A stretch of 64,000 bases of DNA, from the NCBI RefSeq assembly GCF_000226315.1, contig NC_016026.1:1116001-1180000 (forward strand), given 5' to 3'. Shown here piece by piece: positions 16,901-21,552 of this stretch. Position 1 is the first letter of the stretch; each line of letters begins with the position of its first letter. The DNA comes from Micavibrio aeruginosavorus ARL-13 (lineage in GTDB: Bacteria > Pseudomonadota > Alphaproteobacteria > Micavibrionales > Micavibrionaceae). The notes under the pieces are model-generated. The model searched no databases and had not been told where the DNA came from. It was given only the letters and a program-made list of their open reading frames with translations. The translations under genes and the position numbers were made by a program.

Positions 16901-18052
16901 TCATAGCGAAAGCGCAAACCCAAGGCATCCCGATGCAATAAGTGTCACGGGAATGATCCATTTCCAGCGAATCAGGCTGATGGACGCCAGTGCCGCCAAT
17001 GCCAGTACAACCGGGATGGGGGCGGTCAGCGTTTGTTGGGCAATGGTGGCGGTTGTGACGGCGAACAGGCCGATGACGGCGGCGGCAATCGCATGTAATC
17101 CGCCATGCCAATGCGGGTTTTCGATGATTTTTTCCAGATGATTATGGCCCAGCAAGGTAAAGCCAAACGCCGGGAGGAATATGCCGAGGGTCATCAGAAT
17201 GGCCCCGCCAACCCCATCGACCAGATAGCCCAAATAGGTGCCAAAAATCACCATCGGCGCGGGGATGATGCTGGACAGGGCGATACCGTCCACGAAATGC
17301 TGCATCGTGATGTTGGGGTACAGGCCCACCATGCTGTTTTCCAGGAACGGAATGACGGTATAGGCACCGCCGAAGGACAGCAGGCCCGCCTTCAACCCTT
17401 CAATAAACAATCCGCCATGGCGCAGGACGGACAGGGGAACGGTGGGTGAGGCCAGTGTGGTTGATGCGATAAACCCCGCAATAATAATCGCGCTGGCGAT
17501 CAGCATGACGGGGCGGGGCCAGGCATGATCCATGTAATGCATGGTCAGCGCCGCCGCAAACACAACGAGAAAATGCACACCGGCAAAGGTCATCGCGCAC
17601 GAGGCCAGTGCGATAAACCACAATATCGGCGTATCCAGCGTATGCCGCCCCATGCGGTACAGCGCTCGCACGATCAACGCGACCACAGCCGGTGCAACGC
17701 CCACAAAAATGGGCAACAACACATCCGCGCCCAAACGCACATACAATGCGGACAGGATCAAAATGAATACAAAGCCGGGCAACATAAACCCCAGCCCGGC
17801 CAACAGCCCGCCCAATCGCCCCATGCGCACCATACCCATATAGACGCATAATTCATGCGCCTCTGGACCGGGCAGGGCCTGATACACGGCCAGCGCACGG
17901 CGGAATTTATCGGGTGATATCCATTGTTCCCGCTCCACCAACGCATGGCGGATCATATCAATCTGCGCCACAGGTCCACCCCATGCGTTCAGGCCGAATT
18001 TGAGGAAAGTTTTGAAGATTTGAATTGGTGTTTCTGTGTCGTTCTTATTCAT
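16901..18052 (-). CDS. chrA: Chromate transporter, ChrA family
   Basis: A 383-residue membrane protein made of two CHR domains. The N-terminal half shows the family pattern FLKFGLNAWGGPVAQI...QALPGPEAHELCVYMG, and the second half repeats it as LLSFGGAYTVIPFLE. ChrA proteins expel chromate by CHR-dependent antiport. There is no chrB or chrC next to it. It begins only six bases after the last small SGGC-family gene on the same strand, so it may be the tail of that operon; alternatively it is an older resident gene that the inserted block now precedes. Confidence 0.88.
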   Translation of the reverse strand: MNKNDTETPIQIFKTFLKFGLNAWGGPVAQIDMIRHALVEREQWISPDKFRRALAVYQALPGPEAHELCVYMGMVRMGRLGGLLAGLGFMLPGFVFILILSALYVRLGADVLLPIFVGVAPAVVALIVRALYRMGRHTLDTPILWFIALASCAMTFAGVHFLVVFAAALTMHYMDHAWPRPVMLIASAIIIAGFIASTTLASPTVPLSVLRHGGLFIEGLKAGLLSFGGAYTVIPFLENSMVGLYPNITMQHFVDGIALSSIIPAPMVIFGTYLGYLVDGVGGAILMTLGIFLPAFGFTLLGHNHLEKIIENPHWHGGLHAIAAAVIGLFAVTTATIAQQTLTAPIPVVLALAALASISLIRWKWIIPVTLIASGCLGFALSL

Positions 18053-18057
18053 CTATT

Positions 18058-18486
18058 TCAATTTTTAATGCGATAGCCTGCCCCAATAAAGAACATAGCA
18101 ATCCCAAATATGAAAGGAAGAAATCCGACCATGATGGCAATAAAACCAACGCCGGGAAGAAACAGAAGCGTGCAACCGCCACTGAGCAGCGTAATGATTG
18201 CAGCAAATGTCATAAGAATGCCTGCGTAGAATGATCTAATGTCGTTCTCTGCATTGGGCGGTGTGTTAGCCCCATGTTTTTTGGCAAACATGAGGCGCCC
18301 ATTGAGTGCGATACAAAGCCCGATAAGCATGGGTATTCCTCCCGCAAAAAGAGGAAGAAGCATGTTCTGGATATGTCTTGTGTAGAAAGGCTGCCCGATT
18401 GTGTCGATTGCGCAAATACCGCTCGCTAGGGCGATGATTATGCCAATTGTGATAAGGGCGAGAGCGAAGAAGTTTTTAAGCGTCAT
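18058..18486 (-). CDS. Small membrane protein, duplicated SGGC module (unknown family)
   Basis: 142 residues from MTLKNFF. It contains two copies of the same two-helix module. Copy 1 starts K4NFF and carries SGIC with Cys at residue 25. Copy 2 starts with R in DIRSFYAG and carries SGGCTLLF with the same 21-residue gap between the basic residue and the Cys. Each module ends in a second hydrophobic helix with a G-P/I-F-x-x-G pattern. No family is recognised. The 5' end overlaps the preceding paralogue by 11 bases. I use the start at 18486, not the frame's earlier ATG at 18522, because it aligns with the paralogues. Confidence 0.72.
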   Translation of the reverse strand: MTLKNFFALALITIGIIIALASGICAIDTIGQPFYTRHIQNMLLPLFAGGIPMLIGLCIALNGRLMFAKKHGANTPPNAENDIRSFYAGILMTFAAIITLLSGGCTLLFLPGVGFIAIMVGFLPFIFGIAMFFIGAGYRIKN

Positions 18487-18901
18487 CGTTCTTGTAATCC
18501 TGTTTACGAATAAAATTACCAATCAGAAATATGATGATCCCCAAGGCAAAACATGGCGGAGCTATAAGCATGATTTTTTGCTCCGTAAAAGATCCTCCTG
18601 CGCCAAGGATGGTGAAAAACCTTGCTATCGCAATGGTCAGTAAGGAGATTGTGATCCCACAGCCCATAATAATCTTGGCGTGTGTGCGCCTTCTCGGCGT
18701 TTGGCCAATTAAACGTCCTCCGGACGCAAGGGAAATGCCAACGAAAAATGGGAGAGCGCCTGCCATCGGTGCCATGATCGCGAGGATAGCCGCAAATTCT
18801 GAAAGCAAAAATGTATAAAATAAGGTACATCCCCCGCTGATGAGAATCATCAGCCAGCCAATGGATGTTAGTGCAAAGCTAGAGAATGTTCTTGGCGTCA
18901 T
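18476..18901 (-). CDS. Small membrane protein, SGGC family with degenerate second module
   Basis: 141 residues from MTPRTFSS. The first module has Arg4, Gly15 and SGGCT with Cys25, then a second helix and a short basic loop. The second half (RRTHAKIIMGC...) looks like a decayed copy of the module without SGGC. The start is chosen by alignment with the neighbouring paralogues; 37 more residues upstream are open but hydrophilic and unlike them. Part of the overlapping operon headed by the Lgt-like gene. Confidence 0.72.
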   Translation of the reverse strand: MTPRTFSSFALTSIGWLMILISGGCTLFYTFLLSEFAAILAIMAPMAGALPFFVGISLASGGRLIGQTPRRRTHAKIIMGCGITISLLTIAIARFFTILGAGGSFTEQKIMLIAPPCFALGIIIFLIGNFIRKQDYKNDDA

Positions 18902-18911
18902 TTTCTGTGCG

Positions 18912-19109
18912 TTATTTCTTTTGAGAAGGTCGTAACAATGACTTGGCGATGAAAAACATTGAAAGGCCAAACACGAATGGAATAATTCCAAAGGCGATTG
19001 CAAGCTCCCCAAATTCTCGGAATGCTAACAATGTGCATCCGCCGCTGAGCAAGGCCATGAGACCGCCAATAGTCATCAGTATATAGTTCAAGATGTTTCG
19101 GCCACTCAT
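18912..19109 (-). CDS. 65-residue membrane protein, single SGGC module
   Basis: The simplest member of the tandem family. Residues 1-5 are MSGRN, a hydrophobic stretch follows to residue 21, then SGGCT with Cys25, a short loop (REFGE), a second hydrophobic helix with IIPFVFGLSMFFI, and a basic tail RPSQKK. The N-terminus resembles a lipoprotein signal peptide, but position -3 is Ser, not the canonical Leu. Both termini probably face the cytoplasm if uncleaved. The start overlaps the stop of the upstream gene by four bases. Confidence 0.75.
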   Translation of the reverse strand: MSGRNILNYILMTIGGLMALLSGGCTLLAFREFGELAIAFGIIPFVFGLSMFFIAKSLLRPSQKK

Positions 19110-19387
19110 GGCAAATCCTCGCCACTGTCTTGATCGACATCATAGTATGTTGCGTAGGGTGGGGCGTGGTATTCTGGGGTGCGGTAAATCCATTTCCCGA
19201 GCCAATATATGCCGATCCCGATGATAAAGGGTATGCCGCCAACGGCGAAGGGGATCAGTATTACATCCGATAGGCCGCTGTTGTAGAGATACAGAAACAA
19301 GAAAAATACAGTGCAGCCACCAGACAGAAAGGCGGTAACCCATCCTAGAAACATCAAAGTATAAGCGAGAAAGTTTCTGACGCTCAC
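19106..19387 (-). CDS. 93-residue membrane protein, SGGC module with acidic tail
   Basis: MSVRN start, Arg4, Gly15 and SGGCT with Cys25 as in its three neighbours. A second helix carries GGIPFIIGIGIYWLG, and an extra 25-residue tail is rich in Tyr, Pro and acidic residues (ending DQDSGEDLP). It follows the radical SAM gene with a four-base overlap and precedes the 65-residue paralogue with another four-base overlap, so the genes are translationally coupled. Function unknown. Confidence 0.75.
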   Translation of the reverse strand: MSVRNFLAYTLMFLGWVTAFLSGGCTVFFLFLYLYNSGLSDVILIPFAVGGIPFIIGIGIYWLGKWIYRTPEYHAPPYATYYDVDQDSGEDLP

Positions 19388-20796
19388 AATATGCCCCGTA
19401 TCCGTTTTCTCATGTCGTGAACAAGCCCATTGCGATAAAAAAGATTGTACGTGTCAAATGGGATGATCTGTTTTTCCGGGGTTACGAAATGGATACAGGA
19501 TCGTTTTACATTTCCAACGCAGAAATTATAACGGTCAAGAAACTGGACGATCGTAATGCGGAAAATATTTTCGTATCCCAGATTTTTCAGGGCCGGGACT
19601 TCGGGCAAGCAGCATAGCAACGATTCCATGCGTTCCGCCGTATTCAAATCGCCGCTGGAGAGTGAGAACAAGTCGATGACTTTCTGTTTCAAATCCAGAT
19701 TTTTTTCAAATGATACGGCATTTGGAACTTCGGCGATCAGCTCTTCCTGCGGGATAAGGGATGTGACGGGTGTAATTTTTCGGCCATCCCGTAACCCATA
19801 GGCGATGGATATCGATTCAGGATTGCAGGGCAGTGGGATGATATCCTCTGGCGCAAAAATATCGGACTGTTCGTAAATGGCGCGACGGATATCGGTTAGC
19901 AAGAAGCGATCTTCGTTTTTGTTGAATTTTTCATTGCGGCCTGCATCTTGTACGGGCTGGAAGGTAATTCCACGAACGCATTTGTAATTGAGGGCGTGGT
20001 CAATGATTGCGCCGATCTCATGGTCATTCACGCCCTTTTTAACCGTGACGACAAGTGTGGTAGAAATATTAAATTTCTCCAGATTGTCCAAAGCCATCCG
20101 GCGAATGGTGCGAAGGTCAATTCCGCGCAGGTTTTCGAGTGCGGATTTTTCCAATGAATCGAATTGGAGATAGATTTCAAATCCTGGAGAGAGTTTGGAC
20201 AATTCCTGGACAAAGTCCCGGTCCCGCGCAAGGCGTACGCCATTAGTGTTAATCATTAGATGGCGAATGGGTTTTGTTTTAGCCAATTTAAGGATGTCGA
20301 GGATTTGGGGGTGGATGGTTGGTTCGCCGCCGCTGATTTGCAAAACGTCTGGTTCGCCTTCGCTTTCAACCAATGCATCCATTATCGATTCAATTTGTTC
20401 CAGCGACAGATTCTTTTTTCTGGCTGGCGATGATTCGGCAAAGCATACGGGGCATTCCAGGTTGCATTCTTCGTTCACTTCAATAAGCGCGAGGCAACTA
20501 TGTTGTTCGTGATCGGCGCATAATCCACAGTCCAGCGGGCATCCGTATTCCGTTCGGGTTTGATATTTGTGGGGGCGGTCGCCGGGTTTGATAAAATCTT
20601 TGCACCATTTAAAATAAGCAGAATCGCTAGAGATTTTTGTTTTCTGAACCCCGTGCGTTTTGCATCGCTTTTGATAGAAAACATCATTGTCCTCTATCAG
20701 AATTTTTGCCGGAACTAGATCCATACATTCCTCGCACAAGGATGTGGTTTGGCCATAGAAAATATAGGGGGCCTGTTTACGCTGTTCTGTAGACAC
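19384..20796 (-). CDS. Radical SAM enzyme, MJ0619/tetraether-lipid-synthase (Tes) type
   Basis: 470 residues. The N-terminus carries a Cys-rich region with CEEC and a later CKTHG. Next comes the subfamily-specific cluster motif GCPLDCGLCADHEQHSC (about residues 84-100), followed directly by the radical SAM CxxxCxxC as CNLECPVC (about 112-119) and the SAM-binding GGEPT. This extra-Cys layout is that of the COG1964/MJ0619 enzymes, of which the archaeal member Tes joins lipid alkyl chains through sp3 carbons in GDGT synthesis. The bacterial role is not established; a lipid or lipoprotein acyl chain is a reasonable substrate given the Lgt-like partner upstream, whose gene it overlaps by 20 bases. 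Codon use and GC look lower than in flanking genes. Confidence 0.85.
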   Translation of the reverse strand: MSTEQRKQAPYIFYGQTTSLCEECMDLVPAKILIEDNDVFYQKRCKTHGVQKTKISSDSAYFKWCKDFIKPGDRPHKYQTRTEYGCPLDCGLCADHEQHSCLALIEVNEECNLECPVCFAESSPARKKNLSLEQIESIMDALVESEGEPDVLQISGGEPTIHPQILDILKLAKTKPIRHLMINTNGVRLARDRDFVQELSKLSPGFEIYLQFDSLEKSALENLRGIDLRTIRRMALDNLEKFNISTTLVVTVKKGVNDHEIGAIIDHALNYKCVRGITFQPVQDAGRNEKFNKNEDRFLLTDIRRAIYEQSDIFAPEDIIPLPCNPESISIAYGLRDGRKITPVTSLIPQEELIAEVPNAVSFEKNLDLKQKVIDLFSLSSGDLNTAERMESLLCCLPEVPALKNLGYENIFRITIVQFLDRYNFCVGNVKRSCIHFVTPEKQIIPFDTYNLFYRNGLVHDMRKRIRGIL

Positions 20797-21493
20797 GGGT
20801 TTCTCTCCTCACCATAAAAACGCTGTACGTTACAATCGCGATACAAAGATATTGGAATGTATTGAGTGGCCCAATGATTGGTTCATAGGGTTTAAAAAAT
20901 TCCCATGCAAAACGCTGGGTGGCGTAGAACCCAACGCAGAAATAGAACCCTTTTTTGATGATCAGATTGGGGCTGTATTTCAATGCAAGCAGTACGAATG
21001 CGACAAAGGCAACCATGCTGAGGCTTTCATAAATTTGCACTGGATGCCTGAGTATTCGGTCGCCGTAATCCCATCCCCAGGAAGAGCCGGTGGGGATGCC
21101 GTGTGTGTTGTCTTCCAACCCGGAAAAAAAGCAGCCAAGGCGTCCTATGATTACGCTAATGCAAAAGGGAATGATGTAGATATAGCCGGTTGATCCTTTG
21201 GTTCCATATAGCAGTTTATAGAGTTCAACCATAAGGATGGCGCCTGCAAGCGCTCCCAATATACTACGTCCGAACCCCGGAACCCCTGAGATGTGGAGGT
21301 TAAGGGTGCCAAAAAAATAGGCACCTGTGATGCTTCCCAAGCTTAGGCAGACAAAGTACAGGCCGTTAATGCTTGCGGCTGTTTGTTGCAGATCGTGTCG
21401 AAATCTCCACCTATAAGTGAGCCAGCCACTGCAGAGCGCAAGGAGGAGGGCTAGAAAATCAAATGCTGTATGAATAATAAGGGCATGTACCAT
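20777..21493 (-). CDS. Prolipoprotein diacylglyceryl transferase-like membrane protein
   Basis: 238 residues, about seven hydrophobic helices, member of the Lgt family by the central block GRLGCFFSGLEDNTHG...GDRILRHPVQIYES (about residues 128-175). In true Lgt this block holds the GRxGNFxNxE signature that binds phosphatidylglycerol and transfers diacylglycerol to the lipobox Cys. Here GNFxNGE is replaced by GCFFSGL, so this is a divergent paralogue and not the housekeeping enzyme. It heads the operon. The ATG at 21493 is fixed by an in-frame TAA two codons upstream, and no Shine-Dalgarno is visible (see the promoter entry). Confidence 0.82.
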   Translation of the reverse strand: MVHALIIHTAFDFLALLLALCSGWLTYRWRFRHDLQQTAASINGLYFVCLSLGSITGAYFFGTLNLHISGVPGFGRSILGALAGAILMVELYKLLYGTKGSTGYIYIIPFCISVIIGRLGCFFSGLEDNTHGIPTGSSWGWDYGDRILRHPVQIYESLSMVAFVAFVLLALKYSPNLIIKKGFYFCVGFYATQRFAWEFFKPYEPIIGPLNTFQYLCIAIVTYSVFMVRRETRVYRTA

Positions 21494-21528: not shown

Positions 21529-21552
21529 AAAAATAACCGCAACTTTGCGGTT
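21527..21552 (-). terminator. Terminator of the tRNA-Cys/tRNA-Asn transcript
   Basis: Stem AACCGCAA/TTGCGGTT with a 2-base loop; on the minus strand it is followed by ATTTTTTT. It isolates the tRNAs from the operon that begins 30 bases later. On the + strand GTTTTT follows as well, so it may work both ways. Confidence 0.8.

Follow-up and report, generated by a model that had tools for sequence, protein, structure and literature searches.

What might a bacterium make with an operon that joins a radical S-adenosylmethionine (SAM) enzyme resembling the archaeal lipid-tail-coupling enzyme Tes, a divergent paralogue of Lgt and four very small proteins, each with a helix-end cysteine? The operon lies on the minus strand, at 18058-21493, of a 64,000-nucleotide stretch (the window; contig NC_016026.1, positions 1,116,001 to 1,180,000) of the genome of Micavibrio aeruginosavorus ARL-13, an epibiotic predator, and its gene order is Lgt-like, radical SAM (rSAM) and four mini-proteins. 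An annotation made from the DNA letters alone (the sequence-only reading) had proposed a module for the modification of membrane lipids or lipoproteins. The conserved gene set on which that proposal was built is upheld, as it recurs across bacterial phyla, and the rSAM, the Lgt-like protein and the small proteins almost certainly form one functional module. As for its role, the Lgt-like enzyme may lipidate the helix-end cysteine and the rSAM may then modify the lipid chains, a reading to which we give a probability of roughly 45%. Taken singly, the enzymes represent variants of familiar types; taken as a unit, the module is undescribed in the literature covered by our search, in which no paper naming the trio in its title or at the start of its abstract was found (most subscription journals and all preprints lie outside its coverage).

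Linkage of the rSAM and Lgt-like genes

The rSAM was detected in 9 of 143 genomes, that of M. aeruginosavorus included, eight times in a close form and once in a remote one (G036). All eight close loci, again counting our own, have the Lgt-like gene and SGGC-type small proteins; at the remote locus (L017), whose rSAM is 30% identical, neither partner was seen on a contig that ends ~0.4 kb past the rSAM. Within a collection holding one genome per species, an Lgt-like gene lies upstream of the rSAM, directly or with small genes between, in 26/27 loci, the lone exception having an rSAM that is 31% identical. A scan of the phylum recovered the rSAM in 12 of 398 genomes (own included) and a scan of the Bacteroidia in 12 of 247 (central genome included), with the Lgt-like gene nearby in 12/12 cases each time. 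Thus, the worry raised in the sequence-only reading, that the neighbours might be random in other genomes, is not borne out. Among 385 genomes of the class, a main-type rSAM is present in four and an Lgt-like protein above 150 bits in five, the four being shared and adjacent, and the next Lgt-like scores are 60 bits and below. The fifth Lgt-like gene (L065 in G449:C68, ~398-1045) is a broken remnant without a neighbouring rSAM, as though losing its partner lets the gene decay.

The module was found in Proteobacteria, Bacteroidota and Actinomycetota, plus one Gemmatimonadota bin, the latter case (L043) being a single contig of a metagenome-assembled genome that ends in the rSAM and may be misbinned. 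Two remote alphaproteobacterial rSAMs (family f97; L063 and L064) also adjoin an Lgt-like gene and small proteins with a GTC helix end; in these small genomes, a methyltransferase of the ICMT/PEMT type adjoins the Lgt-like gene as well. A plasmid search with the rSAM gave 10 records, seven of which were inspected, with three further haloarchaeal records outside the inspection. The rSAM and Lgt-like pair is present on four of the seven (Persicobacter, Nonomuraea, M. branderi and M. avium); the remaining three, from M. vanbaalenii and two haloarchaea (L103, L104, L107), have no Lgt-like gene and carry a methyltransferase gene directly after the rSAM. With the Lgt-like protein as query, the Persicobacter plasmid alone was matched, because the actinobacterial Lgt-like proteins are remote. 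Downstream in the Hyphomicrobiales loci, an ATPase of the ABC-F type (by eye) recurs among the matches listed, in a neighbour clustering that is noisy.

These numbers have to be read with their sampling in mind: the loci share descent and the scans share some genomes, so that the counts should not be taken as independent events. Where a locus occurred in a second copy (L018-L023, L037, L070, L111 and others), the extra copy was dropped before counting, as were three contigs ending in the rSAM (L041-L043) and the remnant L065; L031 and L033 contain just the end of the Lgt-like gene.

The two enzymes

The rSAM (470 amino acids, 19384..20796, minus strand) was assigned as Tes/TrsS-like by Pfam and NCBIfam matches, motif alignment and fold match. 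It exceeds the Pfam cut-offs for Radical_SAM and for the HMPTM zinc ribbon. The best NCBIfam model is that of TrsS, a radical SAM (seleno)protein (NF045646, 311.5 bits, nearly full length, missing the cut-off of 490), followed by that of Tes (NF045702, 279.4 bits, missing the equivalog cut-off of 450); besides the missed cut-off, a further difference from TrsS is that, by eye, no methyltransferase gene follows the rSAM in the window. The predicted fold, in which residues 359-407 are of low confidence, aligns over 404 residues with Tes (GDGT-MAS, MJ0619; PDB 7tol/7tom), with a Z score of 46.6 and a root-mean-square deviation of 2.2 against 7tom, the next family reaching 20.3, and the protein is clearly Tes-like in its modelled structure. 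The likeness extends to the metal sites, whose motifs in Tes, together with its lipid binding, are described in the accessible part of PMC9433317. The rubredoxin-type site CX2CX20CX2H (C21/C24/C45/H48), the cysteines of the N-terminal auxiliary cluster (C86/C90/C93) and the CX3CX2C motif (C111/C115/C118) are each invariant across 22 aligned sequences, an alignment that excludes the actinobacterial relatives. C324 and C434 are invariant in the same set, with a cysteine pattern there that is unlike the C-terminal [Fe4S4] cluster of MJ0619.

An extra cluster motif followed by CNLECPVC had been taken as the hallmark of the MJ0619 family, and both are present (GCPLDCGLC...HSC, then CNLECPVC). The Tes-type assignment holds for the fold and for the three metal motifs, but not for the family cut-off or for clade membership. 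In a tree of 54 rSAM sequences, 43 form a main clade (support 100/99) apart from MJ0619, which groups with haloarchaeal rSAMs (99/94), although the tree carries long branches and the placement of MJ0619, itself on one of them, is unsure. The main clade does not include the remote rSAMs from alphaproteobacteria (f97) and actinobacteria, which also sit on long branches. A position outside the Tes clade proper, as found here, had been named beforehand as an outcome that would speak against the lipid proposal, and it leaves archaeal-type tail coupling as only an analogy. In summary, the rSAM of the window differs from Tes in its score, in its separate clade, in the absence of Met439 and Tyr459 (see below) and in its pairing with an Lgt-like gene. 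Two side observations concern relatives: the rSAMs of two actinobacterial plasmids (L105, L106) lack the auxiliary-cluster motif GCPxDCGLC while still keeping an Lgt-like partner, and at one Bacteroidia locus (L114, G1005:C9) a single in-frame TAG lies inside the rSAM match.

The Lgt-like protein (238 amino acids, 20777..21493, minus strand), predicted to have seven transmembrane segments, was correctly placed in the Lgt family by the sequence-only reading: it scores 64.1 bits against Pfam LGT (gathering cut-off 24.9), and its model, with a mean predicted local distance difference test (pLDDT) value of 91, matches Escherichia coli Lgt (PDB 5azb) with Z 13.6 over 213 residues, the next match being at 7.1. 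No NCBIfam family, the lgt equivalog included, matched it even at E up to 1, and a separate, normal Lgt is encoded elsewhere in the same genome (258 bits). With E. coli Lgt it shares the seven-transmembrane fold and R143, E202, Y235, R239 and E243, with Lys in place of R246 (R118, Y190, R194, E198 and K201 of the window protein align with R143, Y235, R239, E243 and R246). In contrast to canonical Lgt, H8, D12 and C121 stand for Y26, Y30 and N146, L79 is found at the position of H103 (HGGL), and the GNFxNGE signature, already noted as lost, is replaced by GCFFSGLED.

The same changes mark the whole group. In the Lgt tree, a single branch with support 100/100 separates 44 module sequences from seven canonical sequences, and part of it may reflect the choice of canonical Lgts, all seven being proteobacterial; the remote f97 and actinobacterial members sit near the base of this branch with weak support, and the f97 proteins reach 36-39 bits in the class scan, no higher than canonical Lgt. 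Counted in E. coli numbering, N146C occurs in 44/44 module sequences, Y26H in 41/44 and Y30D/E in 40/44, and H103 is lost in 44/44, a hydrophobic residue replacing it in 43 and Glu in the remaining sequence. All 44 retain Y235 and R239, and 42 retain R143, for which two have Lys; position 243 is always Glu or Asp and position 246 always Lys or Arg. Changes of this kind are also known, by description only, from two further Lgts covered in PMC13251419: the second Lgt of M. smegmatis, MSMEG_5408, combines Y26H with N146C, and the Lgt of Leptospira has N146C. On the M. branderi and M. avium plasmids, an Lgt-like gene encoding H26 and C146 lies upstream of the rSAM with two small genes between. In E. 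coli Lgt, R143 and R239 are tied to phosphatidylglycerol binding and the H103 region is proposed to bind the acceptor peptide or prolipoprotein, according to excerpts of PMC4728403 and PMC13251419. Given that R143, R239 and also Y235, likewise a proposed phosphatidylglycerol-binding residue, are kept and H103 is lost, the donor site of the module enzyme looks kept and its acceptor side altered, as judged from aligned residues, and the enzyme probably handles a phosphatidylglycerol-type lipid.

Small proteins and the proposed lipidation

The mini-proteins of the window, all on the minus strand, are of 93 amino acids (19106..19387, GTG start, Cys25 at 19313-19315), 65 amino acids (18912..19109, Cys25 at 19035-19037), 141 amino acids (18476..18901, Cys25 at 18827-18829, with a hairpin-like second half that has no SGGC) and 142 amino acids (18058..18486), the last one consisting of two mini domains with Cys25 (SGIC, 18412-18414) and Cys105 (SGGC, 18172-18174). 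A cysteine at a fixed position after a signal-like helix had been claimed for all four, and Cys25 is there in 4/4; the SGGC motif is found at this site in three, the fourth having SGIC. Across lineages, the helix-end cysteine is the wider feature, with SGGC as one of its forms. Proteobacterial proteins have it mostly after the first helix (SGGC, SGLC, PGFC, GTC), and those of Bacteroidia and Actinomycetota behind their final helix, close to the C terminus (e.g., IGFGVCMSNLK, SGGLCTGLNPADYAG), 2-17 residues (once 32) from the end in 20 proteins of this late type. A rule-based search identified a small protein with a helix-end cysteine in 52/53 module loci, in 0/4 rSAM loci without Lgt and in 0/44 control stretches; the rule was devised after the data had been seen, module stretches were ~5 kb against 4.2 kb for the controls, and extra matches inside L028, L063 and L114 look spurious. 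When small proteins downstream of the rSAM were chosen regardless of cysteine, 66/67 had it.

The charges around the helix were counted for 73 small proteins, from a list of 74, seven of which were added by hand for having the cysteine and one of which had its key cysteine assigned by hand. Ahead of the helix, the nearest charge is positive (K/R) in 59 proteins and negative (D/E) in 8; past the cysteine, D/E comes nearest in 45 and K/R in 17. By simple hydropathy and the positive-inside rule alone, this pattern predicts the cysteine on the outer side. Position -2 holds Gly in 61/67 proteins, and 39/67 have A, S or G at -3 (L105 is left out of the flanking-residue, charge and unbiased cysteine counts). 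With lipoproteins the mini-proteins share a cysteine at the outer end of a predicted in-to-out helix. A lipobox has a small residue at -1 and a Leu-like one at -3. Ordinary lipoproteins were considered and rejected, since a non-small residue such as L, I or T often stands at position -1 (24/67) and the late-type cysteine is near the C terminus.

When mini domains were searched for in 95 relatives, each of the five genomes carrying a close rSAM had them, always inside the operon. Two unusual proteins may be mentioned here. At L079, the interval between the Lgt-like gene and the rSAM encodes a larger protein (653-1480) that opens with a signal-like helix terminating in LIGGTGC, and at L099 (G009:C44, 5463-6209) an SGGC mini domain is fused to a domain that by eye resembles a GNAT acetyltransferase, the rSAM not being found in that genome.

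In the reading that we prefer, every chemical step of which we infer, the small proteins would carry their cysteine where an in-to-out helix ends on the extracytoplasmic side, the site occupied by a lipobox cysteine; the Lgt-like enzyme would attach a diacylglyceryl group, or a related lipid, to it without cleavage by LspA; and the Tes-like rSAM, on the cytoplasmic side, would then modify the alkyl chains, with the joining of their ends through a carbon-carbon (or sulfur-carbon) bond as the likeliest reaction. On balance, we lean towards the helix-end cysteine as the acceptor of the Lgt-like enzyme, and the coupling of lipid chains by the rSAM is proposed tentatively, by analogy with Tes. A more specific version, in which the Lgt-like enzyme, using its swapped Cys, His and Asp/Glu, lipidates the outward cysteine and Tes-type chemistry on this proteolipid joins its lipid tail to the tail of an inner-leaflet lipid, so that a covalent lipid staple across the membrane would hold the protein, a new kind of protein modification, appears unlikely when taken as a whole. 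For the lipid module as first proposed, the gene set, the fold, the Lgt paralogue and the helix-end cysteine have thus held, and membership of the Tes clade has not.

Several observations weigh against lipidation followed by chain modification. With the cysteine predicted on the outer face and the rSAM presumably in the cytoplasm, their meeting is left unexplained. To our knowledge, the same topological question is also open for Tes. Position -1 is G, A or S in just 43/67 small proteins, and the cysteine sites are therefore not normal lipoboxes. L079 is the one module locus with no small helix-cysteine protein, and at L105 the rule picked a cysteine other than the intended one. Of 89 relatives in which the rSAM was not matched, four still show matches to the mini domain, good ones in G031 (at a contig end) and G009 and weak, partial ones in G105 and G108 (E 0.004-0.006). 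Lastly, Met439 and Tyr459, fully conserved among archaeal Tes enzymes according to the accessible part of PMC9433317, are V417 and F437 in the window rSAM, and among the 22 aligned relatives position 439 is Met in one and position 459 Tyr in one; the point is softened by the same excerpt, in which the M439A enzyme is still active and Y459 is non-essential.

Among the alternatives, the one that fares best has the two enzymes making a free special lipid (tail-coupled, membrane-spanning or a thio-lipid), with the small proteins as scaffolds for the enzymes or the lipid and their cysteine forming a disulfide, binding a metal or packing helices. Tes itself makes free lipids, a partial view of PMC8941075 reports 456 bacterial Tes homologues with synthesis of branched glycerol dialkyl glycerol tetraethers as their proposed role, and the two enzymes are conserved while the small proteins diverge strongly between lineages. 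However, the single helix-end cysteine is nearly the sole constant of those proteins (66/67) despite their differing architectures, and a scaffold need not keep it, which makes this alternative doubtful.

Next, the Lgt-like protein might no longer be a diacylglyceryl transferase, its H26, D/E30 and C146 serving together as a Cys-His-Asp/Glu site for acyl transfer via a thioester, an idea that is partly compatible with lipidation of the helix-end cysteine. The three residues occur together in 38/38 sequences of the largest group with an aligned N terminus and in 0/7 canonical ones, and Y30 and N146 of E. coli Lgt share a hydrogen-bond network (PMC4728403, in part). Two smaller Lgt-like groups, though, depart from it, two sequences having Y26 and three V30, and a Leptospira Lgt with N146C is described in the available portion of PMC13251419 as partly replacing the E. 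coli enzyme, so that C146 need not mean new chemistry; we regard the thioester route as improbable.

Finally, the rSAM could modify the small proteins themselves, in the manner of ribosomally synthesized and post-translationally modified peptides (RiPPs; e.g., a thioether from the helix-end cysteine), with the Lgt-like protein lipidating or exporting the product, but even though several tandem small proteins beside one rSAM resemble RiPP loci and the maturases SuiB (Z 20.2) and SkfB (Z 18.8) are among its remoter fold matches, the enzyme is far nearer Tes (Z 46.6) than any RiPP maturase among the matches listed and the cysteine is predicted on the outer side, making this quite improbable.

Tes homologues occur in bacteria not known for biphytanyl chains (PMC9433317, accessible part). 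Most sampled bacterial rSAMs of the type studied here are accompanied by a dedicated paralogue of Lgt and by a small membrane protein with a cysteine, and the module points to a concrete candidate substrate and residue. If the cysteine is lipidated, bacteria would have a second type of lipoprotein, left uncleaved and served by an Lgt of its own, and this would bear on which bacterial Tes homologues signal sources of membrane-spanning lipids in geochemistry.

Genomic setting of the operon

The gene overlaps of 20, 4, 4 and 11 bases given in the sequence-only reading were re-measured and all match; a 10-base gap between the 65- and 141-amino-acid genes had been omitted there. The operon has a GC content of 46.3% against 54.8% for the remaining window, and the genome is one contig of 2,481,983 bases in which no second match to the rSAM was found. 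No mobile element was recognised by eye among the translated open reading frames flanking the operon. The low GC content, together with the patchy spread of the module (9 of 143 genomes, own included), suggests its transfer or loss. A promoter scan gave 2 sites versus 6.7 in shuffles. A terminator-like site (21535-21552) and the genes for tRNA-Asn and tRNA-Cys are found close upstream of the operon, and the product of the next gene downstream, on the same strand (16901-18052 of the window), resembles by eye a membrane protein of the chromate-transporter type.

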